Assembly: GCF_947495325.1 (NCBI RefSeq) | Contig: NZ_CANLYK010000001.1 | Coordinates: 434,001-498,000 of the forward strand | DNA from: an uncultured Allomuricauda sp. | GTDB taxonomy: Bacteria > Bacteroidota > Bacteroidia > Flavobacteriales > Flavobacteriaceae | Reading direction: 5' to 3' | DNA: 64,000 nt | Part shown: positions 49,797 to 61,276 of the stretch, piece by piece | How positions within the stretch are numbered: position 1 is the first letter of the stretch | How the letters are laid out: every line of letters begins with the position of its first letter | Notes under the pieces: generated by a model | Seen by the model: only the letters and a program-made list of their open reading frames with translations | What the model was told of the DNA's origin: nothing | Database searches by the model: none | Translations under genes and position numbers: made by a program

Positions 49797-50078
49797 ATGG
49801 CAAAAGAAAAAGACCTAAAATATCGCAATCTGTTTTTAGGATTATTGTTTGATGGGATTGGAATGCTTTCGTTTGCGATTCCTGGAATAGGAGAGTTTTC
49901 TGATGTAATATGGGCCCCTTTGGCAGGTTGGTTAATGACACGAATGTATAAAGGGAAGATAGGTCAGGCTGCCGGTGTGGTTACCTTTGTTGAAGAATTG
50001 GTGCCTGGATTGGATATTATTCCCACTTTTACAATTATGTGGATCTATACCTACTTGATTTCCAAGGATAAAAATTAA
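49797..50078 (+). CDS. Small membrane protein, unknown function
   Basis: The 93-residue protein has two hydrophobic hairpins (about 15-50 and 60-88) and conserved-looking glycines (GMLSFAIPGIGEFSDVIWAPLAG). It contains the segment VEELVPGLDIIPTFTIMWIY. I do not recognise a named family, but such short proteins recur in flavobacteria. It is 40 bp behind folE and ends just before a strong bidirectional hairpin. Confidence 0.65.
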   Translation: MAKEKDLKYRNLFLGLLFDGIGMLSFAIPGIGEFSDVIWAPLAGWLMTRMYKGKIGQAAGVVTFVEELVPGLDIIPTFTIMWIYTYLISKDKN

Positions 50079-50101
50079 AAAAGCCGCCAGAAGCGGCTTT
50101 T
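50079..50101. terminator. Bidirectional intrinsic terminator between the msrA unit and the DUF5916/ABC/TonB operon
   Basis: AAAAGCCGC (50079-50087) pairs with GCGGCTTTT (50093-50101), loop CAGAA. The left flank is A-rich, giving a T-run on the minus strand. It ends both the 93-residue protein gene and the minus-strand operon. Confidence 0.9.
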
Positions 50102-50115
50102 CCACTAACAAAAAT

Positions 50116-52326
50116 CTAAAATTGCTTTAAAAGCGTAATCTTACTTATAAACTGTTTGGCATTCCTTGAAGGGTCAAAAATATCAGTTTGGGTATCATTA
50201 AAAACGAGATAAACAAAAGATAGGGGCATATATTCCCAGCTAAAATGCGCATTCCATCGCCCTTGTTCATTAAAGCTATTGTACTGATAGAAAGTTGACA
50301 ATTGTAATCTTGGATTTAATGCTAGTCGTAAATTTGCTGAATATAGATTCGTAGTCAAATTAGCGTTGTTGATTCCAACATTTTTAATTGTGTTATGCTC
50401 ATAGTCCAAGGTTAGCGCGGCATGTGGAACTGGCGCAAAACGGGAAGTAGCACTGATAGTACCTCTGGTCCCATTATAAAAATTTCCAAAATTATAACCG
50501 ATATCTCCAGACCATTTTTTGGATTGGTCCGTGTTATATCGTACTAAATATCTTGTATAAAAATAATTGTCTTGTTCAATTTCCAATCCTAATGGAGCGA
50601 ATTCAAAATTGATGTTTTGCCATGTAGGAGTAAAGGAGACCTCGACAAAGCTATTGTCTTTAAACCATGTGTAAATGGGAAAAACATAAAGGCTGGCCTG
50701 CTGAAATTGGCTAGGATTGGTCGCGTCATGATTATAATTGACAAACATACCTGGATCCCATCGCCTAATCCAATCAATGTTCTTTGGTCTCCATATATAA
50801 TAACCTCCGGGATTGTGCCGAATTACATTGTTTTGCCTAACAAATCCCATTCTTGGGTTATAATTTGCATCTGTATATTCAGTTACCCATCCGTAATAGT
50901 ACTTATTGTTGTCGTTTCCTATAAAAATTCTTCCTGCATATCCAGTTTTTCCAGTAGACTCATCTATTGAGCTGGACAATAAATACTGTATATCCCATTG
51001 ACTAGTCGGCCTAATTTGGCCATCTAACGTTATAGTGGTATTGTTGTTGTTTTCCAGATTGAGTTCCGAGTAACTGTCATCTGCTCGATGGGTGACCATT
51101 ATGCCAATATTGTTTTCCCTTCCATAGTTTTTCAAATAGCGAAGAACACCAAAATTAGCTCCAGCTGAGTTTTCAGTTTCACGCTGGCGAACTAAAAGAC
51201 CTGCCAATGCATTTTTCTCTGTTCTTTGAGTAAAACGGGCACCAAAATCAATTGGTGCCGGCGTCGCATTGAATTCACCTTGTAAGCCAATTCTTCTGCT
51301 AAAAAAAGGGCGAATTGATTGTTGAAAGCCACCAGCCCAAATACCTGAGTTTTCTAAAAAGAACTGACGGCGCTCAGGAAAGAAAATATTGAAACGTTCT
51401 AGGTTATTTACAGCCCTATCAACATCCGCTTGGGCAAAATCGGTATTGATGGTTAAATCGAGGACAGTTTTTGGGTTTATGGCCCATTTGGCATCAACGC
51501 CTACCTTAGGGTCACTGAATTTAGTGGTTAATGATTCCCCTTCTTTATTCTCATCATATTGGTATAAGGCATAAGGCTCTACCCTAATATTGGCTGATGG
51601 AGGAGGTACTTCAATACCGGTTAGTTTGGCGGCATAGGTCATACGATATGGTGTAAAGGATTGAGGAATGGCAGGGAACGTAGAAACTTCAATATCTCTG
51701 CGGGCATAGCGCACCAGTGTCATTCCCCATTCAATCGTATTACCATTTTTAGGCAGGTCATAGCGCAAAGACTTAAAGGGAATGGCCATCTCCACGGAAT
51801 ACCCCTTATCGGTTCTTTGCGTGCGAACCCTCCATAAGGTATTCCAACCTGTGTCAAAACTATTTCCATTGAAATTTTGAAAATCACGTTGGTTACCAAA
51901 AGGAGTCGTTTGAAATCCTTGCGCATATTGTTTGAGGTTTTGTGGGTCAAGGGCTATACCGAAAATATCATTTTCTCCCCAGTCAAAATCCCTTCTTAAA
52001 TCCTGAATTCTAATACCTTGTATACCTAAAGAATCGCTACAGAATGCGGCAACGTATAGATTTTTGTTATCATATAAAAACTTCACTTCAGTTTTATATC
52101 TAATCTTACCACCTTGCCTTGGTTCTGTTCTGAAAAAATTGTCAACTATTTCCGCTGTTTGCCAATCTCTTTCATTCAGAAAACCATCCAATTGAATTCC
52201 ATTGTCGGTTTTTGAGACCTTTACTTCTTGAGGAATTTCTGGTGGAGCAAAATTTTGGGTACCATTTTCCTGACCATAAGCGAGACATAATGGGAAAAAC
52301 ATTATTATCCAGTAAGATACCCTCAT
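50116..52326 (-). CDS. DUF5916 protein: CBM9-like domain plus outer-membrane barrel
   Basis: The 736-residue exported protein has a signal peptide (cut near YGQ). The N-terminal part resembles a family 9 carbohydrate-binding module (LDGFLNERDWQTAEIVDNFFRTEP, then VKFLYDNKNLYVAAFCSD). A long barrel domain follows with many aromatic-ended strands, and the chain ends ITLLKQF. This is the DUF5916 layout, whose function is unknown. The ATG overlaps the permease stop by 4 bp (ATGA), so it is translationally coupled to the ABC transporter. That coupling argues for a shared job in export or uptake. Confidence 0.85.
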   Translation of the reverse strand: MRVSYWIIMFFPLCLAYGQENGTQNFAPPEIPQEVKVSKTDNGIQLDGFLNERDWQTAEIVDNFFRTEPRQGGKIRYKTEVKFLYDNKNLYVAAFCSDSLGIQGIRIQDLRRDFDWGENDIFGIALDPQNLKQYAQGFQTTPFGNQRDFQNFNGNSFDTGWNTLWRVRTQRTDKGYSVEMAIPFKSLRYDLPKNGNTIEWGMTLVRYARRDIEVSTFPAIPQSFTPYRMTYAAKLTGIEVPPPSANIRVEPYALYQYDENKEGESLTTKFSDPKVGVDAKWAINPKTVLDLTINTDFAQADVDRAVNNLERFNIFFPERRQFFLENSGIWAGGFQQSIRPFFSRRIGLQGEFNATPAPIDFGARFTQRTEKNALAGLLVRQRETENSAGANFGVLRYLKNYGRENNIGIMVTHRADDSYSELNLENNNNTTITLDGQIRPTSQWDIQYLLSSSIDESTGKTGYAGRIFIGNDNNKYYYGWVTEYTDANYNPRMGFVRQNNVIRHNPGGYYIWRPKNIDWIRRWDPGMFVNYNHDATNPSQFQQASLYVFPIYTWFKDNSFVEVSFTPTWQNINFEFAPLGLEIEQDNYFYTRYLVRYNTDQSKKWSGDIGYNFGNFYNGTRGTISATSRFAPVPHAALTLDYEHNTIKNVGINNANLTTNLYSANLRLALNPRLQLSTFYQYNSFNEQGRWNAHFSWEYMPLSFVYLVFNDTQTDIFDPSRNAKQFISKITLLKQF

Positions 52327-53747
52327 GATATTATTAGTTTTGATACATTCCCTTTGAATGCAATCATATATGCGACAAAACCAATTCCAATTGAAACAAT
52401 CATAATTATCAGGGAAGCAATCATATTGTTTTTTAATCGAATGGGGTGATAGTTAAATGATGGCAGTTCACCATATTTACTGCTTGTAAAAGGCTCATTA
52501 TTGTATAAGAGCGGAGTTAAATGATTTCGCCATGTTTCTGCAAAGCCTATTACTTGTTTGCGATAATTTTCATAGTCAGCAGTTGAAGTTCCTGAAAGTA
52601 TATTAAGAGACTCTTGCGCAATAATCGCAGGGGAGAGCCATCGAAATTTTGATACCAGTGCCTGTTGTCTTTCTAACTGCCGTTCAAATTCCAAAGTGAC
52701 AGGTTCAAGCTTTTCTTTGACCAGCTTTTGCGATGCCATATAGCGATGATAGAATTGCCTGCTTTGATTTGGGTCGTTTAGAGCATACTCGGGATGATCT
52801 CTTAAGAAGTTATCCAAAATCTCATCTTGTTTTTCAGTAGCTTCTTCTTTTAAATTTCTCATTTTATTGATCATCAGTGTGCGTGATGGCATTGGATATA
52901 GTGTATTTCCCAATTGATTTAACACTGATGGAACCAATAGCACAAAAACAACCCAAAGCCCTAAAAGTACAATTGCATTTTTTGAAGAATCCCCAACCCT
53001 TAAATTCACTGCGAAAGCAAGCGAAAACCAAAAAAGTATATATGCCGCTGTTGTAATGATGACATCAAACAATCCTTTAAAATTGTTGCCTGACACCAGA
53101 AATACAAAAACTATAGTGAGAATAATAACGGTGAGTATAAGAGTCAAAAGAAAACGCAGACTTATTTTTTGAAGCACCCATGTATGGATTGAAATAGGCT
53201 GGGAAGCCAATAGTTTCAATGACCCGCTTTCTCGTTCTGCTGATAAAATATTATACGAAAATGCGATAATAATTAAAGGAAGTAGATAAACGATAACAAA
53301 TGCAAGGTCAAAACTTCCAAAGAGTTGTTGAACAGGACTGATAATTTCAGTGAAATTAAGTGTAAAGTCATCTCCAGCCATTGTTGGTTTTACATAGTGG
53401 GTAAACAAATCACTCTGTCCTGTTGAGACAAATGACAGTGGTTGCGGATCCATTGCAGCTACCCTGGGATAATAGTTGCCAACTGCTGTTGGACTTGAAG
53501 GGATAGTCCATCTAGAAGCACTGACTTCCATACCATTTTCAACCGAATCCAAGAGAGAAAGCATGTTAGCATCAGACTCTTTGACCTCTACTTTTGCGGA
53601 ATGAATATCTTGTTTTCTTTTTAGTACTTTTTGATTTCCATTGATTGTCGCAAAGCAGAAAAGCCCCAATAACAATAAGCTAAGAATTTGCATCCACCCA
53701 CTGCGCAGGAGTAGTTTAAATTCATATAAAAAATTATACCTGTACAT
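52323..53747 (-). CDS. ABC transporter permease with large periplasmic domain (DUF3526-like), second copy
   Basis: The 474-residue protein starts with a helix (15-35) and has a large extracytoplasmic region of about 110 residues. Helices around 150-300 follow, then a further soluble part and a last helix near 455. The arrangement and the segment SAERESGSLKLLASQPISIHTWVLQKI match ABC-2/DUF3526-type permeases. It is 2 bp from its partner permease gene and overlaps DUF5916. It forms an ABC-2-type exporter with the ATPase at 55153-55869. Confidence 0.85.
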   Translation of the reverse strand: MYRYNFLYEFKLLLRSGWMQILSLLLLGLFCFATINGNQKVLKRKQDIHSAKVEVKESDANMLSLLDSVENGMEVSASRWTIPSSPTAVGNYYPRVAAMDPQPLSFVSTGQSDLFTHYVKPTMAGDDFTLNFTEIISPVQQLFGSFDLAFVIVYLLPLIIIAFSYNILSAERESGSLKLLASQPISIHTWVLQKISLRFLLTLILTVIILTIVFVFLVSGNNFKGLFDVIITTAAYILFWFSLAFAVNLRVGDSSKNAIVLLGLWVVFVLLVPSVLNQLGNTLYPMPSRTLMINKMRNLKEEATEKQDEILDNFLRDHPEYALNDPNQSRQFYHRYMASQKLVKEKLEPVTLEFERQLERQQALVSKFRWLSPAIIAQESLNILSGTSTADYENYRKQVIGFAETWRNHLTPLLYNNEPFTSSKYGELPSFNYHPIRLKNNMIASLIIMIVSIGIGFVAYMIAFKGNVSKLIIS

Positions 53748-53749
53748 AA

Positions 53750-55156
53750 CTATCGGAGTTTAATGGTGATGAATAAAAAAGAAAAAGACCCTAATAACCA
53801 TGCTACTAGAACAATTATGTTAGAAGAATTCCTAGATAGGATTTCAGCAAGTTGAGGAGGAGAATACTCAAAGGCAGGCAGTTTTTTCCATGTAGCTTCC
53901 TCAGCTTTATAACTCCAATCTCCATGAGAGGAATTTTTTGCAAAATCATTGTTCAAAAATGCCTGCATCCTAATACGATAATCTTCTGCAGCATCTGAAA
54001 AGTCCCAATGCGTTGAGTAATCTGTATTTGCCACTCCCATACTTAAAAAACGTGTCGGAAGAAATGGTGAAAGAGTTGCAAGACCAACATATACCTTGGT
54101 TTGGCCTTCAAATTGTGATTTTAAATATTTATAATGCTTAAAATATACTTCAGCATTATGTTCTTCTCCCTTTTGCATTCGGTATGCATCAAAATTAAAT
54201 GGTAATTGATGTAAGCTATCAACATTATATTCCCTTAGAACTTCTTGCTCAAGTAGTTTGGCTTGCTTGTTCCATGGGTCATGGCCGTCTAAACCTTCTT
54301 GTTTATCTTTTAAAATATTTGCTGCAAATTCTTGACGAGTTGGATAAGGATGTTTAGTTTCTGCGAAATTACTGGCTGCCTTGGGCGCAACGAAGCAAGC
54401 TATAATCCAAATTGCCAATGACAAAACCAATGAAATAGAGGATTTTTTAGATTTTGAGGAGACAATTAATACAAGATTGACAAAAACAATGTAATAGCAT
54501 ATGTACACTAAAAAAAGTATTCCAAGGTTACTCCATCTGAAAACACCAAAATCTTCAAGGTTGGATAGAATTATTCCAGCACCAACTATTACTAGTGCCA
54601 TAATAACTAGGATAGGCAAGAAAAGAGCTGTCCATTTTCCCAAAACCAATTTCCAAGGTGCAATTCCTTGGCTTTTGATCAATACCAAGGTTCTCATTTC
54701 CCGCTCTTTGGTAAAAGCGTTATAACCCAATAGCACAATAAGTAATGGAATAATGAATAAAAGAATGAAATCAGGGGTTAAATCACCAAAACGTGCTAAA
54801 CCAGTTTGATCAGCTGCTTGACTAAATTGAGCTTCATTTCTATTATGTGCTTCCAAAAAAATCGAGGTTCCCGCATATTTATCCACCCCTTGATCAATTA
54901 AGGATAATGGGTATTTTGGTTTAAAAGCATACGTGCCATAATGCGCTGCCGAGTGTGGGTTTTTTTCACCCTGATTATTCCAAATGGACCTTTCCGCATT
55001 TTTGGCCTCGGCATATTGTTGGTTTGTAGAATTATACTGTCTACTACTAATCCAAGTAGAAATACCCAACAATACTAGTACGATAAAAAAAGCTATTTTG
55101 ACTCTTCCATCCCTTGCAAGCTCTGTAATCTCTTTAATAAAAGTGTTACGAATCAT
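53750..55156 (-). CDS. ABC transporter permease with large periplasmic domain (DUF3526-like), first copy
   Basis: The 468-residue permease has the same layout as its neighbour: a first helix at 20-40, a periplasmic domain (about 45-130), then helices. The conserved segment TKEREMRTLVLIKSQGIAPWKLVLGKW is present. The two proteins are paralogues that probably form a heterodimer. The ATG overlaps the ATPase stop by 4 bp (ATGA). The periplasmic domains could bind a substrate or the outer-membrane partner. Confidence 0.85.
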   Translation of the reverse strand: MIRNTFIKEITELARDGRVKIAFFIVLVLLGISTWISSRQYNSTNQQYAEAKNAERSIWNNQGEKNPHSAAHYGTYAFKPKYPLSLIDQGVDKYAGTSIFLEAHNRNEAQFSQAADQTGLARFGDLTPDFILLFIIPLLIVLLGYNAFTKEREMRTLVLIKSQGIAPWKLVLGKWTALFLPILVIMALVIVGAGIILSNLEDFGVFRWSNLGILFLVYICYYIVFVNLVLIVSSKSKKSSISLVLSLAIWIIACFVAPKAASNFAETKHPYPTRQEFAANILKDKQEGLDGHDPWNKQAKLLEQEVLREYNVDSLHQLPFNFDAYRMQKGEEHNAEVYFKHYKYLKSQFEGQTKVYVGLATLSPFLPTRFLSMGVANTDYSTHWDFSDAAEDYRIRMQAFLNNDFAKNSSHGDWSYKAEEATWKKLPAFEYSPPQLAEILSRNSSNIIVLVAWLLGSFSFLFITIKLR

Positions 55157-55869
55157 GACACAAATTCTTTATAGTTCATGGCTTCTAGGTAAGCCTGCTC
55201 CAATTCGGGTAGGGATATGTCTTTTGTTGCATACTCTTGCCTTAATTGCCCATTTTTCATAATGCCAATATGCGTGCCGGTATCTTTAGCTCTAAATAGA
55301 TCATGCGTGGCCATTAATATGGAAACTCCGTTATCCTTTAATTTGTGTAAAAGCTGTCCAAATTCATTACTACTTTTTGGGTCTAAGCCGGAAGTTGGTT
55401 CATCCAGTAATAATGATTTAGCGTCTTTGGCCAATGCAATAGAAATGCCTACTTTTTGTCGCATTCCCTTAGAAAATGTTGAAATACGGCTATTAAAAGC
55501 GTTCTTCTGAAGACCAGCCTCATTTAAAAAATCTTCTGATTGGCTTTTACTAAGGTTTTTTCCACCTATACCTGAAAAATACTTAAGGTTTTCTACTGCT
55601 GTTAGGGTAGGATATAGCATTAAATTTTCTGGAATGTACGCTAGGTATTGTTTTGTTTTTATATATTCTTCGGATACGCACAAACCATTGATAAACGCAC
55701 TTCCTGAAGTGGGTTTTATAAAGCCAAGCAGTAAATTAATGGTAGTTGTTTTACCTGCTCCGTTAGCTCCGAGTAAGCAATAAATTTCGTTGGCACCAAT
55801 GTTCAAATTCAATTGATTTAGTACAATGGTTTCACCATACTGTTTAGTGAGATTATCAGTTGTAATCAT
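55153..55869 (-). CDS. ABC transporter ATPase of the ABC-2 export type
   Basis: The 238-residue ATPase has Walker A (GANGAGKTT), signature FSKGMRQKVGISIALA, Walker B (SLLLDEPTSGLD) and the H-loop MATHDLF. The sequence type is that of CcmA/NatA-like exporters rather than importers. It lies 107 bp behind the Cys-containing small protein gene on the same strand, and its stop overlaps the permease start. Confidence 0.93.
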   Translation of the reverse strand: MITTDNLTKQYGETIVLNQLNLNIGANEIYCLLGANGAGKTTTINLLLGFIKPTSGSAFINGLCVSEEYIKTKQYLAYIPENLMLYPTLTAVENLKYFSGIGGKNLSKSQSEDFLNEAGLQKNAFNSRISTFSKGMRQKVGISIALAKDAKSLLLDEPTSGLDPKSSNEFGQLLHKLKDNGVSILMATHDLFRAKDTGTHIGIMKNGQLRQEYATKDISLPELEQAYLEAMNYKEFVS

Positions 55870-55976
55870 AATAATTTATTTAAATATGGATAAAATAAAG
55901 GCGCTTCAAAAATCGTGGTTGATTTAGAAGTATGATAGCTAAGTATTTTTCAAAAAAATACCCTAATAAAGTGAAG

Positions 55977-56306
55977 TTAGCATTTGAAAGGAGGCCCCCT
56001 TAAATACTTGAAATCAGAACTAACAGTAGAGATGTTAGTATCCTTAAATATAAATACGGAAGAAAAAAAAATGGTAGTGAAGAGTGCTTTGAAAACCAAA
56101 GGTAATGTGGCTGGTTTTGTATTCAGCTTTGCACATAAACCACAGTTGAATTCTGTTTCGGAAATCGTCTTATAGCCATAATCAACCTCAGCTACAGTAT
56201 TGGAAACATGAGATGTTAAGACATGAAAAATGGTATAGCTAAATTGAAGAAGCAAAAAGCTAATCAATATTGAGCTATACCAAATATGTCTGTTTTTTGT
56301 TTTCAA
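55977..56306 (-). CDS. Small exported/membrane protein with Cys pair, DUF2946-like, second of two
   Basis: The 109-residue protein uses a TTG start, since no ATG lies in the open frame upstream. It has an N-terminal helix (about 9-30), a His (FHVLTSH), the pair CGLCAKL near residue 55, a second hydrophobic segment and the end RGPPFKC. The protein at 59416-59718 has the same layout: a His, a C-x2-C pair (CAVCDL) and an end with RPPP. This resembles DUF2946-type small proteins associated with metal-uptake receptors. The family call is by pattern only. Confidence 0.6.
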   Translation of the reverse strand: MKTKNRHIWYSSILISFLLLQFSYTIFHVLTSHVSNTVAEVDYGYKTISETEFNCGLCAKLNTKPATLPLVFKALFTTIFFSSVFIFKDTNISTVSSDFKYLRGPPFKC

Positions 56307-56349
56307 AACATCTTCTTGTTTCCGGAGCGGAAATTTTTGAATATGTTAT

Positions 56350-56943
56350 TTATTCAACCACAAGATCAAAGGTTTCTGTTATATCCGTTTCTCCACCAGC
56401 ATCACCAGTAGTTCCATCGTTTGGTTTTGTAGGTTCATGTCTTAGCGTAACTGTAAATGTACCTGTACCTGCATCTGTTGTGGTTGCTGTAAATACAAGC
56501 CCAACAGGATTGGTCGTTGTAAAATTTTCTCCCGTTTCAGCAGAGACATAGTCAGACTCGTCATCAGCATATGCAGTACTCATATTTAGTCCAATTCCTA
56601 CTTCAAAGAAAAACTGATGCTCAGCTGCCTCGCCTTCAACTTCTTCATTAACTTCTTCCGCAGGATCTTCTGTTTCATTCAATAATACAATAGAACCATT
56701 GTAAGTTGTATTTTCGGAAAGGTTACCAGATATTGTAACATCAGGTTCTTCCGGACCATCGCCATCCAAATCTTGCGTTTGAAGTGTAATTGTTGTTCCA
56801 CCACCTTCCGGCACTAGTGTAATGGTCATTGTTGTAATGACTTCTTCTTCGTTAACATCGTCCGGAGCTTCATCATCGTTAGAACATGACATAAATAAGG
56901 CTCCTGCTACAATTGTTGAAAATAAAAATTTGCTTGTTTTCAT
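56350..56943 (-). CDS. Acidic lipoprotein encoded next to a TonB receptor
   Basis: The 197-residue lipoprotein has a lipobox LFMSCSN (Cys 20) and a very acidic linker (NDDEAPDDVNEEEV). It then has a beta-rich domain with ITLVPEGGGTTITLQTQDLDGDGPEEPDVTISG, AAEHQFFFEVGIGLN and VTLRHEPTKP. In flavobacteria this family is often named type 1 periplasmic-binding-fold protein and sits beside TonB receptors. The few His and many acidic residues could bind a metal ion. Its start is 10 bp after the receptor stop, so both are co-transcribed. Confidence 0.75.
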   Translation of the reverse strand: MKTSKFLFSTIVAGALFMSCSNDDEAPDDVNEEEVITTMTITLVPEGGGTTITLQTQDLDGDGPEEPDVTISGNLSENTTYNGSIVLLNETEDPAEEVNEEVEGEAAEHQFFFEVGIGLNMSTAYADDESDYVSAETGENFTTTNPVGLVFTATTTDAGTGTFTVTLRHEPTKPNDGTTGDAGGETDITETFDLVVE

Positions 56944-56953
56944 AGTAAAAAAT

Positions 56954-59353
56954 TTAATAATTGAGTTTTAATTGTAATATTATGTTTCTTCCCAAATCAT
57001 CCGCGTAGAAACGCTGCCGATTCAGATAATCTCGATACTTTGTATTTAAAAGGTTAGTTAAGGTCAATGATGTTGTTAATTTCATATTTCCCTTTAATTG
57101 GAATCTCTTCTTTGCGCCAGCTGCCACTAAATGGTAAGCATCTGGTGGGGTGTTAATTTCCAAGAGCACGTCTTCCTGGTCTGCTGGTGAAAAAACCCAT
57201 AAATTCTCAGGAAACTCGTTCTGTCGGAAAACATAGTGACTTTCCAAAAAGGCTTCAAAACCATTCCATTCAGGCCTGGAAAAGATAATCTTGTTCCTCA
57301 AGGTAGCAGCGGGAATATTTATTATGGCAGCATCCTTGTCAACGTCCTTTCCTTTCACCAATGAAAACTTATGCTCTGTTTTCCAATTTTTTGACCAATC
57401 AATATAGGAGGAGAAATCCACCCCTAATAATCTTGCATCGGTTTGACGGTATTCCCAAACTGGAAATGCCCCCCGAATGGTAAATTCCACTCCTGTAGGT
57501 TCCAATAGAATAAAATCCTTGATAAAATTTCCATAAGGTTCAAGGGTAAATCCCCATTGTTTAAACTGTCTTTGGTATGATAGTGATATTTTATGTGATG
57601 TTTCACTTTGAATACTAAGATCACCCAACTCAATTCTGGCAGCTGAATGGTGCAGGCCGTCACTAAACAATTCTGAGGGATTTGGGGCTCTTTTGGCAAT
57701 CGCATAGTTTAACCGAGTGACATTTGCATCATTCTCACTATACTTAATTCCCACGGTTCCAGATATATTGTTGTAGTCAAATATGGGGTTTACGAGCAAT
57801 TGGGTTCCTCTGTCCTCAACAATCAAGTCTTGGAATTCCGCGTCATAACCTCTTTCTTCCCATCTTGAAGTCTGGTAAAATTTCTGGGCATCAATTCTGC
57901 TAAAATCATATCTAATTCCGGCATCAACCAATAGTTGATCGTTCAATCGATATTCACCGGTAACAAAAGCTCCAAAATCGTACTTTTCATAATCGGGAAT
58001 CAATCTCCTTACTCCTGTCTCTGGGTTGGGGAAGTTCTCCTGATATCTCCCTAAAAGCCCAAATTGAAGTTGATATTCTTCCTTGGCATCCCATTTAAAG
58101 TCGGAAGAAAGGGTATGGGTCGTAAGTTCCAAGTCTATAGCGGCTTGATCACCACGCCCACCTCTTCTTACATCAAATTCAAAACGTCTATTGTTTTGAT
58201 AATCATATTGAAGGTTCCACTTGCCCAATCCTTCAAAGCGTTTGTAAAATTTTATTTTTCCTAAATGATGGGTGACTTCCTGTCTTGGGTTTTGCAACTC
58301 ATATGTAAACGGATTGATGACCTGTGGCTCACCACTGTTGATAGCTCTTATTAGGTCATCAACACTTCCAATATGGGATGCCCTTAAAATCGCAATTTCT
58401 GAGGTGTAGAACGAATATCTTGCATCCCAGCCCCAAGTAAATAATCGTTTACCAAATTGAAGGGATGCGCCAATTTCCTTTATACCGGTATTGGAAAGTA
58501 TATAGTCTGGGGCCTCTTGGTCTCCCAAACGCTTATACGAACCTTGTCCCTTTAAAAACCAGCCTTTTTTAAATGCCCTGGTGAGTTCTGAGGTAATATT
58601 TCCACCCCTTCCATTTAATATTCCGTTAACTAAGGTTTTTCCATACAAAGTGTCTTTGGAAGGGATTCTTGCCTGTTCCATAAGGATTACCCCACCAATG
58701 GCATCGCCCCCATATTGAAGCGCAGAAGCTCCCTTGATTACTGAAATTGAACCAGCGGAGTTGATATCTATATTAGGAGCATGTTCATCTCCCCATTCCA
58801 TATCCTGCATCCGAACACCATCGTTTAATATCAAAACCCTACTGCCATTCAATCCATGAATAGCTGGTTTTACAATGTTTGCCCCGGTGTTTAAGGAAGA
58901 AACTCCGCCCAGTTCTTTTAAGGCATCACCCAAATTACCGGAGCTATATTGTTCCAGAGTAGTAAGCCGCAAAGATTCTTCTATAGCTGAGTTTGTTTTA
59001 TTGGCCAGTGCGTCTCCAACCACTTTAACTTCCTCCAATTCTTCAATATGATGTTCCAGCCTTATGTCCACCCATTCAATTCCTTCTAGGCTAACCTCAA
59101 TAAAAACAGTAGAACAGTCAGGATGGGAAATCTCCAATTCGTACTCTCCTGAACACAAATCCAAAATTTTGAACTTTCCGTTATCATCGGTTTCCACTAT
59201 ATTTTGAGTACCAACAATTTGTATAACTGCTTTTTCCAAAGGAGTTTTATCGTGATAGTCTATTACTTGTCCTGAAAGGATATCAGTGCAATCTTGAGAT
59301 AGTCCGTGAAAGTGGACTAAAAACACAAATACAATGAAAATCTTTATTTTCAT
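56954..59353 (-). CDS. TonB-dependent receptor, ZnuD-like (putative metal uptake)
   Basis: The 799-residue receptor has a signal peptide (cut after LSQ), a carboxypeptidase-regulatory-like N-terminal domain (about 22-105), a plug (about 125-235) and a 22-strand-type barrel ending NIILQLKLNY. In the plug, VLILNDGVRMQDMEWGDEHAPNID and ALQYGGDAIGGVI correspond to the YDHAVPID-type and LLYGGNAVGGV motifs I associate with zinc receptors of the ZnuD type. In the barrel, SELFSDGLHHSAARIELGD resembles the ZnuD ELY-HxAxxxFExGD segment. Zinc or another divalent metal is therefore a likely substrate. It sits in an operon with Cys-containing small proteins and an ABC exporter. Confidence 0.85.
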   Translation of the reverse strand: MKIKIFIVFVFLVHFHGLSQDCTDILSGQVIDYHDKTPLEKAVIQIVGTQNIVETDDNGKFKILDLCSGEYELEISHPDCSTVFIEVSLEGIEWVDIRLEHHIEELEEVKVVGDALANKTNSAIEESLRLTTLEQYSSGNLGDALKELGGVSSLNTGANIVKPAIHGLNGSRVLILNDGVRMQDMEWGDEHAPNIDINSAGSISVIKGASALQYGGDAIGGVILMEQARIPSKDTLYGKTLVNGILNGRGGNITSELTRAFKKGWFLKGQGSYKRLGDQEAPDYILSNTGIKEIGASLQFGKRLFTWGWDARYSFYTSEIAILRASHIGSVDDLIRAINSGEPQVINPFTYELQNPRQEVTHHLGKIKFYKRFEGLGKWNLQYDYQNNRRFEFDVRRGGRGDQAAIDLELTTHTLSSDFKWDAKEEYQLQFGLLGRYQENFPNPETGVRRLIPDYEKYDFGAFVTGEYRLNDQLLVDAGIRYDFSRIDAQKFYQTSRWEERGYDAEFQDLIVEDRGTQLLVNPIFDYNNISGTVGIKYSENDANVTRLNYAIAKRAPNPSELFSDGLHHSAARIELGDLSIQSETSHKISLSYQRQFKQWGFTLEPYGNFIKDFILLEPTGVEFTIRGAFPVWEYRQTDARLLGVDFSSYIDWSKNWKTEHKFSLVKGKDVDKDAAIINIPAATLRNKIIFSRPEWNGFEAFLESHYVFRQNEFPENLWVFSPADQEDVLLEINTPPDAYHLVAAGAKKRFQLKGNMKLTTSLTLTNLLNTKYRDYLNRQRFYADDLGRNIILQLKLNY

Positions 59354-59415
59354 TCTTAGAAATAAATTTAAAAAAGGGTGTTTCCTAAAGAAACCTAATC
59401 ATTTAATGGGGCCAA

Positions 59416-59718
59416 TTACAAAAGAAGTGAAGGAGGAGGCCTGGAAAAAAGATTAAATGATAAGCTTGAAGTAAAGTCCGTATTGACAATGTCAAAACAG
59501 GATTCAGAATATGTGAAATATGATTGTGTTGAAACTACAGGCTGAGTAACATCAAGGAATCCTGTGTCCTGCGTTTCAAGCGCTAAATCACAAACAGCAC
59601 AGCTTTCAATTTTATCTTCATCACAATCATTATGGGAATAGACATGCAGGGCTGATACCTTGACAAGCATCAAGGATATGAAAAGGAATAAACCAAAAAG
59701 CTTTCTAAATTCCTGCAT
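59416..59718 (-). CDS. Small exported protein with Cys pair, DUF2946-like, first gene of the TonB operon
   Basis: The protein has 100 residues from the ATG at 59718. The longer TTG start (59727) lies inside the TAGCTTTG promoter box and is rejected. It has a signal or helix (about 6-22), HVYSHNDCDEDKIESCAVCDL with a C-x2-C pair and His residues, and the end RPPPSLLL. It is similar in layout to the 109-residue protein at 55977-56306. It may be a metal-binding helper or sensor. It lies 62 bp before the receptor gene. Confidence 0.6.
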   Translation of the reverse strand: MQEFRKLFGLFLFISLMLVKVSALHVYSHNDCDEDKIESCAVCDLALETQDTGFLDVTQPVVSTQSYFTYSESCFDIVNTDFTSSLSFNLFSRPPPSLLL

Positions 59719-59724
59719 TTGCGA

Positions 59725-59732
59725 CAAAGCTA
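59725..59732 (-). promoter_or_regulatory. -7 box (TAGCTTTG) for the TonB-receptor/ABC operon
   Basis: This exact TAnnTTTG match lies 6 nt before the ATG at 59718, so the first gene is nearly leaderless. It is the main visible promoter for the eight genes down to 50116. A short inverted repeat, GTTTC-CTAAA-GAAAC, lies in the gap before the receptor (59354-59415). Confidence 0.55.
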
Positions 59733-59771
59733 GATAATTTGCAGGGTTTTATTATGTTAAAGAAAACATAA

Positions 59772-60074
59772 TTAATCAAAAAGGAATCCAAGGCCCATAC
59801 GTTTGAGCATTTTCTTTTCAAAGTTCCAGAAAAATTGGAATTGTCCAAAAAGCCAACCAAAAAAGACCAACAAGACTTGATAAATGGGAAAAATCAGTAA
59901 AATTCTAACGGGCCAATAAATCCACCCAGAGACGTTTTCTTTTTCTAAACCTATAATATCTGTAAGTGGTGCAGCAAGTTTGGCAGCGCAGCTTCCGGTT
60001 ACTGCAAATACAATAAAGATTATTACTACCTGAAAATTGGATTCAATGCCCCAGCGTTTTTTTAATTTCTCCAT
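59772..60074 (-). CDS. DUF6787-like small membrane protein
   Basis: The protein has 100 residues from the ATG at 60074. It has two hydrophobic helices, KKRWGIESNFQVVIIFIVFAVTGSCAAKL at the start and IYQVLLVFFGWLFGQFQFFWNFEKKMLKRMG at the end. This is the layout of the flavobacterial DUF6787 family, sometimes misnamed prolipoprotein diacylglyceryl transferase. The function is unknown. A TATTTTTG box lies 19 nt upstream. Confidence 0.75.
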   Translation of the reverse strand: MEKLKKRWGIESNFQVVIIFIVFAVTGSCAAKLAAPLTDIIGLEKENVSGWIYWPVRILLIFPIYQVLLVFFGWLFGQFQFFWNFEKKMLKRMGLGFLFD

Positions 60075-60093
60075 CAAAATAAAAATTCGATGG

Positions 60094-60101
60094 CAAAAAT
60101 A
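60094..60101 (-). promoter_or_regulatory. -7 box (TATTTTTG) for the DUF6787 gene
   Basis: This exact TAnnTTTG match on the minus strand lies 19 nt upstream of the ATG at 60074 and overlaps the gap behind the DUF6146 gene. Confidence 0.5.
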
Positions 60102-60106
60102 AGGTA

Positions 60107-60565
60107 TTAAATCCTAGGAATAAAAGGACCAAGCCTTTGGTTATATTTCCGTTGGAAGTAAATAAAGTAATTGTACAATTTATAATTTACCTCATAACCA
60201 TAATCTATGTGAGGATCATAATTTATTTGTAACTCGTATAAATTTGGATTGAACCGCTGGGGTTGTATTACCCTCTGGTTCCAATTAATTACCATAATTT
60301 GATTTCTACTTTCCATGTAGCTTTGGGTATAATAACCCTCTGGCCTTGCAATACTCTGTAGCCAAGCATTAAAACCTGGCTCTATGATGATAATTTCATA
60401 TTCGGTTTCGTCATCCTTTATTTCAACAGCTTCTTCTTCTTGGGAATCAAAGACTGCTTTTTCCTCTGTGGAAATATCCAATGCTTCTTTTTGCGTTGAA
60501 CACGAAACAAACAAACCCACAATCAATGATGCAGCAATAAAATAGTGTAGTACTCTCTTTTTCAT
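60107..60565 (-). CDS. DUF6146-like lipoprotein
   Basis: The protein has 152 residues from the ATG at 60565, with a lipobox LFVSCST (Cys about 22). An acidic region is followed by a conserved-type domain: EPGFNAWLQSIARPEGYYTQSYMESRNQIMVINWNQRV and then YNYFIYFQRKYNQRLGPFIPR. This matches the DUF6146 family of Bacteroidetes, of unknown function. It is an outer-membrane or periplasmic lipoprotein, 69 bp behind the DUF937 gene with a hairpin between them. Confidence 0.78.
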   Translation of the reverse strand: MKKRVLHYFIAASLIVGLFVSCSTQKEALDISTEEKAVFDSQEEEAVEIKDDETEYEIIIIEPGFNAWLQSIARPEGYYTQSYMESRNQIMVINWNQRVIQPQRFNPNLYELQINYDPHIDYGYEVNYKLYNYFIYFQRKYNQRLGPFIPRI

Positions 60566-60584
60566 ATTATTAAAATACAAAAAA

Positions 60585-60608
60585 AGCCATTTGAAAACTC
60601 AAATGGCT
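60585..60608 (-). terminator. Intrinsic terminator after the DUF937 gene
   Basis: A 10-bp stem (AGCCATTTGA at 60585-60594 with TCAAATGGCT at 60599-60608) with loop AAAC is followed on the minus strand by seven T residues. Confidence 0.85.
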
Positions 60609-60634
60609 CTGTTAAATAAAGTTAAGATTGGTAG

Positions 60635-61276
60635 TTATTTTCCGAAAAGGCCTCCTAAAAGCCCCCCAAGACCACTCTTTTTCTGACCTCCGCTGTTCAA
60701 TACCATTCCAGCTAGATCATCTATTACACTACCATCACCATCTGAATCCAAAAAGGTTTCTATTAATGACTGTTGTTTGTTAGCTGAACTATTTCCTCCC
60801 ATAAGTCCTCCTAAAAGTCCACTTAATGCATCTGGGCTACTGACATTTTGTTGTTTTGTCTGTTTGCCCAAATAACCCAATAGAATAGGAGCCGCTATTT
60901 TTAATATTTGGGAGATTGAACCTGCATCGATACCTGATTTGCTACTCAAGGCATTTTCAACCTGTGGTTGCTTTGATCCAAAAACATGACCTAAAATACC
61001 TGCACCATCATCCATTACATTTTGATCTACGCCACCACCGAATAGACCACCAAGGTCGTTTAAGATGCTGCCATCATGTTTGGAAGAAAGTGCATTCAAT
61101 AAACCTTGTGCGCCTCCTGGGGTAGAAGTATTTTTCTTCATTGCACCCATTAAAAGGGGCATGGCCATACTCAAAACATCTGCTGTTTTGTTTTCAGGTT
61201 GCCCAGTTTGACCAGCTACTCCGCTAATCAATTGTTTGCCCATGGGGCTGTTCAATAAGTCTAATAATCCTGACAT
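60635..61276 (-). CDS. DUF937 domain protein
   Basis: The 213-residue protein is Gly/Ser/Leu-rich with repeated GGLFGG, LLGGLMGG and LGGLLGGLFGK segments. It contains MAMPLLMGAMKKN and LKIAAPILLGYLGKQ, the paired helices of DUF937. A DSDGDGSVID segment near the end looks like a calcium-type turn. The family is cytoplasmic or surface-associated with unknown function. It has its own terminator and no clear -7 box. Confidence 0.8.
   Translation of the reverse strand: MSGLLDLLNSPMGKQLISGVAGQTGQPENKTADVLSMAMPLLMGAMKKNTSTPGGAQGLLNALSSKHDGSILNDLGGLFGGGVDQNVMDDGAGILGHVFGSKQPQVENALSSKSGIDAGSISQILKIAAPILLGYLGKQTKQQNVSSPDALSGLLGGLMGGNSSANKQQSLIETFLDSDGDGSVIDDLAGMVLNSGGQKKSGLGGLLGGLFGK

Follow-up and report, generated by a model that had tools for sequence, protein, structure and literature searches.

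Putative nascent-chain metal sensors in a probable two-module envelope metal-acquisition operon, likeliest for zinc, of an uncultured Allomuricauda

What are two small cysteine-containing proteins doing in an operon that sets a TonB-dependent receptor beside an export-type ATP-binding cassette (ABC) system? The question is raised by eight genes on the minus strand (50116-59727) of a 64,000-nucleotide (nt) stretch of DNA from an uncultured Allomuricauda sp. of the Flavobacteriaceae (NCBI RefSeq assembly GCF_947495325.1, contig NZ_CANLYK010000001.1, positions 434,001 to 498,000), the whole of which we call the window. An earlier annotation made from the letters alone, here termed the sequence-only reading, had described an eight-gene operon, and our check of the open reading frames (ORFs) found all eight predicted ones present. 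We consider the small proteins, small1 and small2, more likely to be arrestable regulatory leader ORFs than transport parts, and refer to them as leader 1 and leader 2. The reading that we prefer, with a probability of roughly 0.6, is that of a two-module envelope metal-acquisition operon, likeliest for zinc, in which each module is gated by its own predicted nascent-chain metal sensor.

Leader 1 (59416..59718, minus strand, as are all genes of the operon) is an exported-looking protein of 100 amino acids (aa) encoded ahead of the receptor; it carries H25, C40xxC43 and a C-terminal RPPP that is followed by SLLL and the stop. Leader 2 (55977..56306; 109 aa, TTG start), also exported-looking, is encoded ahead of the ABC genes, has a CxxC and ends in RGPP, then FKC and the stop. 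Both assignments come from the ORFs and their motifs, with hydrophobic N-termini evident on inspection, and the shared layout of His, CxxC and R-x-PP that the sequence-only reading had pointed out holds in both proteins. Among 98 six-frame ORFs of 60-160 aa in the window, CxxC combined with [RK]xPP within 15 residues of the C-terminus matches just small1 and small2, and at E <= 10 a family profile built with both proteins hits no others in the genome. When 26 such proteins were aligned, both from the window included, the common residues were only H, C, C, P and P, at 13-44% identity to the first sequence. Across 99 loci, 63 of 1909 ORFs of 70-160 aa have the same CxxC and C-terminal [RK]xPP pattern; they are followed directly by a gene for an ABC ATPase resembling the window's in 44 cases, by one for a TonB receptor in 16 and by neither in 3, one of which (L077) precedes the ATPase in a separate neighbourhood count. 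Four of the 63 fall in control loci (defined below), in L095 and L109 before receptors and in L109 and L117 apparently by chance. Measured over 59 distinct sequences, CxxC and the first P lie 47.1 +/- 1.58 residues apart in the 22 members of the xPP class and 51.9 +/- 1.34 apart in the 37 of the PPP class, total protein length varying more (standard deviation 8.8 and 6.5, respectively), and the prolines usually lie 2-4 residues short of the C-terminus. The ratio of nonsynonymous to synonymous substitution (dN/dS) is ~0.3 for leaders 1 and 2 (leader 1 compared with L009) and 0.085 for permease A of the operon, which indicates that the leaders are translated but loosely constrained.

The exported look of the small proteins, their invariant His and CxxC and their place within a metal operon would also suit working periplasmic metallochaperones that take over metal from receptor and lipoprotein, deliver it to the ABC complex and have no leader role, and a dN/dS of this order implies that they are made as proteins. 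We think this unlikely, because their most fixed features are R-x-PP near the stop and its distance from CxxC, neither of which a chaperone would require, identity is low outside the motif residues, 60 of the 63 pattern matches stand directly before an ABC ATPase or a receptor, and leaders of CruR type provide a precedent.

CruR of Bordetella pertussis is a DUF2946 upstream ORF with a CxxC and, 3 residues before its end, RAPP, with 45 residues between the two; copper on the nascent chain frees the arrest and leads to Rho-dependent termination before the TonB receptor gene, and the export signal is dispensable (PMC9426467; this paper, PMC9973294, PMC12992588, PMC10987492, PMC4176598 and PMC2770081 are cited from excerpts). 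CruR arrest has been demonstrated in vitro, and RGPP generally gives the most robust arrest among the motifs compared (PMC12992588). CutF, an exported copper sensor, likewise has a motif distance of 45 residues; the rules set for CutF-like proteins are a length below 150 aa, an N-terminal signal peptide, PP in the last 15 residues and a same-strand gene within 1000 nt, and Bacteroidota account for 40% of such proteins after normalisation and 19% otherwise, not all of them being thought copper-specific (PMC9973294). The word zinc does not occur in that survey's main text. Like Rhodobacter CutF, both of our leaders are smaller than 150 aa, have a Cys pair and PP in the last 15 residues, and are followed on the same strand by a gene less than 1000 nt away, the gaps being 62 nt (leader 1) and 107 nt (leader 2); CutF differs in having CxxxC, in that copper switches its genes on and in needing a stem-loop, of which no conserved counterpart was found here. 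With CruR-bfrG the operon shares a small CxxC ORF with a C-terminal R-x-PP directly 5' of a TonB receptor, and the spacing from CxxC to RxPP in leader 2, 44 residues, lies within the CruR-type 45 +/- 2; the differences are the lack of DUF2946, the RPPP of leader 1, the presence of two leaders per operon and the zinc-type context. Since motif, geometry and position agree, the window leaders fit the CruR/CutF class.

How such leaders might act can be outlined from these precedents. During synthesis, the His/CxxC part of the leader would already be outside the ribosome when the C-terminal RPPP (leader 1) or RGPP (leader 2) came to lie at the peptidyl-transferase centre and stalled translation. 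If metal were scarce the stall would last and the downstream genes would be on; metal on the His/CxxC part would release the stall and turn them off, as with CruR and copper, the downstream switch perhaps being made by Rho or a stem-loop. Leader 1 would head an outer-membrane module of receptor and lipoprotein, and leader 2 an inner-membrane module consisting of a ZnuGHI/NosFY-like ABC complex (the ATPase and two DUF3526 permeases, hereafter the trio) and the DUF5916 protein. Arrest, metal, switch direction, the mechanism downstream and the cargo of the ABC complex are all inferences of ours.

The arrangement of the genes bears on how the two modules came together. In the window the RPPP leader 1 heads the receptor and lipoprotein genes and the RGPP leader 2 heads the ABC genes. 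In 8 of 69 trio instances (L009, L010, L012, L014, L018, L069, L070, L071) a single block contains two leaders, and in 7 of these 8 blocks their motif classes differ, so that a recent tandem duplication of leaders is unlikely. The order small1, receptor, lipoprotein, small2, ATPase, permease A, permease B, DUF5916 is kept in five Flagellimonas loci (L009, L010, L012, L014 and L018); the survey for the same eight genes that the sequence-only reading had proposed thus recovered them in five relatives. In L011, L013 and L069 the receptor and lipoprotein are replaced at the same place by versions only 27-35% identical while the rest of the operon is kept, and the receptor module therefore seems exchangeable. 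Leader and trio are also found together without a receptor. At the site beside DUF6146-DUF6787, which is that of the window's operon, six of 28 control loci (L092, L095, L097, L105, L109, L110) lack a trio but have a TonB receptor together with a leader-like ORF; all six of these ORFs end in RAPP, RGPP or KAPP, two with CxxC and four without. Since controls hold a leader-receptor pair at this very site, the leader-trio-DUF5916 part looks like an addition to an older leader-receptor site. The four ORFs without CxxC (L092 3027, L097 4914, L105 4935, L110 2656), with their RAPP/RGPP ends and His and Cys clusters, would make a further leader class, perhaps for another metal.

The ABC trio itself points towards metal handling. 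The ATPase (55153..55869; Pfam, NCBIfam) is ZnuG-like, and permease A (53750..55156) and permease B (52323..53747) each combine ABC2_membrane_2 with DUF3526 in Pfam. A structural model of permease A (predicted local distance difference test, pLDDT, 85.7) has NosY as its best fold match (Foldseek E 4.8e-4), with Z 23.5, root-mean-square deviation 2.9 and 246 aligned residues; the best other family is ABCA1 at 18.9. Its residues P67-H68, A70-A71-H72 and L101-E102-A103-H104, unchanged across 31 sequences whose identity falls as low as 31%, probably lie in the first periplasmic loop and form a candidate metal site. As in NosDFY, the permease fold goes with an ABC system tied to metal handling; the window differs in its DUF3526 insert, in having two different permeases and in the lack of a NosD domain in any of the eight proteins. 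In Caulobacter, Zur represses the ABC-2 system znuGHI, which lies next to the receptor gene znuK (PMC4176598). Like that system, the window sets an ATPase and a pair of permeases of ABC-2 type beside a TonB receptor, and Caulobacter was the one genome of 14 controls in which DUF3526 was detected; ZnuGHI-ZnuK is Zur-controlled, whereas the window has leaders, lipoprotein and DUF5916 and no Zur-type box. In our view the complex would work mechanically on a periplasmic metal carrier, like NosFY, and not as a classical importer. The pairing of a receptor with an export-type ABC system, which the sequence-only reading had called unusual, is not quite that, as 28 of the 69 trio instances have a TonB receptor in the same block.

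Another use of such a pairing would be a metallophore cycle, in which the receptor takes in a metal-loaded chelator and the ABC-2 system expels the empty one. A sister form with a siderophore-type receptor within the trio block (17/69 instances; three of three receptors scanned exceed the TIGR01783 cut-off) accords with this idea, as does a Zur-controlled MacB-type exporter of P. aeruginosa that is linked to pyochelin (PMC11481552). Metallophore export, which the sequence-only reading had entertained, found no backing in the window: no biosynthesis gene was recognised among the operon's genes or in the flanks, as judged partly by eye, the receptor is not of siderophore type (TIGR01783 18.7 bits against a cut-off of 223.5) and the permease fold is nearest to NosY, from an ABC system of metal-centre assembly. 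We accordingly give the cycle little credence here. In the sister DUF3526 systems the order is ATPase, siderophore-type receptor, two permeases (L120-L129, L060, L061, L063, L064, L066, L067); a leader is often present and a Zur-type box sometimes, some lie beside fur and MerC, and zincophore uptake is a possible function. Searches of open-licence PubMed Central papers, the literature covered throughout, found nothing on DUF3526 with TonB or on DUF5916.

To ask which metal is concerned, we compared the neighbourhoods of related trios. Scanning with permease A yielded 31 loci, and further loci came from genomes with matches (a genome set, n=29, and a distant set, n=10); the 31-locus and genome sets overlap, L017/L072 and L038/L073 looking identical. 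Each of the 28 genomes behind the n=29 set contributed one control, a locus around an ATPase of LolD type (n=28); within the n=10 set only G486 has a control, and the control of G467 is a lower-ranked LolD match, the best one adjoining the trio. Apart from Fur and FFCG of the own genome, the marker references were drawn from trio loci, which favours finding them there, and the same references were applied to the controls. Neighbours of the trio include Fur-family regulators, COG0523 GTPases, MerC, DUF1826 and a protein with an FFCG motif, and Pfam on representatives confirms Fur, CobW with CobW_C, MerC and DUF1826, the last being named in a figure legend on Zur-regulated COG0523 clusters (PMC2770081). 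For the genome, distant and permease A-scan sets in turn, Fur occurs at 7/29, 4/10 and 4/31 trio loci against 0/28 controls, COG0523 at 5/29, 0/10 and 2/31 against 0/28, and MerC at 7/29, 4/10 and 5/31 against 1/28, the sole control with MerC (L103) being a MerC/ABC/FFCG/FFCG cluster of the type seen at the own genome's candidate zur locus. The controls are not neutral for the receptor (7/28, against 7/29 trio loci), the lipoprotein (3 against 3) or DUF5916 (9 against 8), in part owing to the closeness of LolD to the same receptor site, so that for these three adjacency alone counts.

The divergent fur-ABC and fur-MerC gaps have in common the palindrome TGCAAC-N3-GTTGCA, a candidate Zur operator. 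Exact copies occur at 10/29, 3/10 and 5/31 trio loci (18/70) and at none of the 28 controls, and with at most one mismatch the counts are 13/29, 4/10 and 7/31 against 1/28; many copies stand directly before the first gene of the trio or beside fur. The organism's own genome has one exact copy, outside the window (G000:C2:118836; L054 9837), in the divergent gap between MerC and an ABC-FtsX-FFCG-FFCG-Fur cluster that is the probable zur locus, with a MacB-like ABC system. Metal scavenging, as the sequence-only reading had it, is thus supported in outline by the Fur/Zur-like, COG0523, MerC and DUF1826 neighbours and Zur-type palindromes of the relatives, together with the likeness to the Zur-regulated ZnuGHI beside a TonB receptor, and we take zinc to be the most likely metal of the operon; the Zur site that it also expected, around 59725-59760, did not appear in palindrome or matrix searches of the window.

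Copper is the obvious competitor, since CruR and CutF both sense it, CxxC is a known copper motif, the receptor matches the copper receptor OprC in the PDB as well as TonB-copper (below the latter's cut-off), and one trio of the family adjoins copper genes. A copper operon with copper-sensing leaders nevertheless seems improbable to us, given the Zur-type palindromes, Fur, COG0523 and DUF1826 beside the relatives; in addition, the excerpts of one survey report that copper-related RAPP/RGPP upstream ORFs are lacking in some groups, Bacteroidota included, and that TonB-related ones occur throughout Gram-negatives (PMC12992588).

Across the 69 trio instances, a leader and a Zur-type box tend not to coincide: both are present in 4, only the leader in 41, only the box in 9 and neither in 15 (Fisher p=0.008, shared ancestry ignored). 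The leader count of 45/69 is an underestimate, since the leaders of L013 and L078 escaped the script, and L039 was left out as a fragment. This tendency suggests that leaders replaced Zur control, and the lineage of the window has the leaders and lacks the palindrome. We propose, tentatively and with the odds against it, a zinc-responsive operon whose RPPP and RGPP nascent zinc sensors set separate thresholds for the outer and inner membrane, the leaders having replaced Zur in Flavobacteriaceae while the operator was kept at related trios elsewhere in Bacteroidota. We found no literature on zinc leaders in Bacteroidota among the CruR/CutF and ZnuGHI topics, and no paper joining Zur box, Bacteroidetes and zinc uptake.

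Several observations weigh against gating of the operon by zinc-sensing leaders. Copper, not zinc, is the signal of the studied leaders of CruR/CutF kind. For the RPPP of leader 1 we found no reported arrest in the literature covered; this motif goes unmentioned in the excerpts of PMC12992588 and was among those sought in E. coli and B. subtilis, where most RAPP-like proteins did not stall (PMC10987492). The spacing of leader 1, 49 residues, is outside the CruR-type range. Neither small1 nor small2 matches Pfam DUF2946, for which reason we class them as CutF-like, and within the family DUF2946 matches weakly in 2 of 26 members (best E 0.0062). The metal site of the leaders is not fixed, as shown by the four leader-like ORFs without CxxC before receptors in control loci. 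RNA structure gives no help: the gaps after leaders have a mean z of -1.52 (57 gaps), low at first sight, and the comparison with length-matched control gaps gives -1.57 against -1.54 (55 each, p=0.43), with no shared structure found in leader gaps by RNAalifold. On the zinc side, no TGCAAC-N3-GTTGCA within 2 mismatches occurs in the window, a position weight matrix for the palindrome reaches at best 4.0 at 50000-60700 (17.6-30.9 in the training sites), and the Zur-type box is also absent from seven Flagellimonas-type loci. The presumed kinship of the trio to ZnuGHI is a resemblance judged by domain and gene layout. In L036 (6366-13563), a Rhodospirillales metagenome-assembled genome (MAG), a distant DUF3526 trio directly follows a multicopper oxidase, DUF1775 and CopC-CopD, which suggests a copper variant and makes zinc less than certain for the trio family as a whole.

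In the genome itself no COG0523 zinc-type GTPase was found; PF02492 gives two matches, both weak, in frames that we take to be IcmF and Ffh. The window as a whole has no Rfam match at gathering score. The 62-nt gap between leader 1 and receptor (59354..59415) contains a short hairpin and T-run at 59370-59394 that is not significant (z +1.53), and the gap between leader 2 and the ATPase (55870..55976) a hairpin (z -1.5); for neither was a consensus structure found. A perfect hairpin without T-run, TTTCCG-CTC-CGGAAA, lies at 56319-56333 between the lipoprotein stop and the start of leader 2. A second palindrome, TTATGTT-N6-AACATAA (59752-59771), has no other exact copy in the genome; when as many as 2 mismatches are allowed it has 56 matches forward against 97 for a control pattern, its left arm is not conserved, and we rejected it as a regulon site. 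ATG 59718, and not 59727, is probably the start of the first gene, and directly upstream of leader 1 lies TAGCTTTG (59725..59732, minus strand), a candidate -7 element of Bacteroidota type, named on the consensus that we assume, TAnnTTTG; TAG[AC]TTTG is found 5' of leader 1 in 6 of 6 Flagellimonas-type loci listed.

The receptor (56954..59353) has TonB receptor, plug and CarboxypepD_reg domains in Pfam, the last as a carboxypeptidase-regulatory-like N-domain, and is best described as hemin/ZnuD/OprC-like from its Pfam, NCBIfam and PDB matches. As a label, ZnuD-like proved weak, the NCBIfam ZnuD model (NF038289) giving 86.9 bits against a cut-off of 950; what stands is membership of the same receptor superfamily as Neisseria ZnuD, with similarity in the plug and a PDB match to ZnuD confined to residues 105-285. 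It scores below every NCBIfam cut-off. Its partner, the acidic lipoprotein (56350..56943), keeps the His of EHQFFF and that of LRHEP invariant in 15 aligned sequences (3 from control loci); it has no sequence relative in the PDB, and the single-sequence model (pLDDT 36) is not usable. The lipoprotein, small1 and small2 match no Pfam or NCBIfam family above cut-off, while Pfam finds ABC_tran in the ATPase and DUF5916 with CBM9_1 in the last protein (50116..52326), whose N-domain is CBM9_1-like and which is presumably an outer-membrane barrel. Of the proposed ATGA couplings, ATPase/permease A and permease B/DUF5916 do overlap by 4 nt, and the two permease genes are 2 nt apart. DUF5916 follows the trio at full length in 12 of 31 loci and partially in 3; in a Kordia MAG (L016 12830-13486) it is cut down to an N-terminal remnant of 218 aa beside Fur and MerC genes. 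The distribution of the trio is patchy: at E <= 1e-20 permease A is found in 30 of the 199 family genomes, one per genus, and at class level in 10 of 295, our genome included in each count.

We regard regulation by two putative nascent-chain metal sensors as the interesting part of this operon, RNA structure lending it no support. The combination of such leaders with metal uptake looks new, the leader class itself being known from CruR and CutF. The metal-sensing arrest leaders studied so far in the literature covered are for copper and from Pseudomonadota; if our reading is true, arrest leaders would extend to zinc, to Bacteroidota and to two in one operon, and RPPP would become a concrete motif for the study of arrest. 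The analysis further provides a candidate Zur operator for Bacteroidota, a phylum not named in a 2018 review of Zur, and offers a role for the DUF3526 transporters and for an unnamed family of small proteins.

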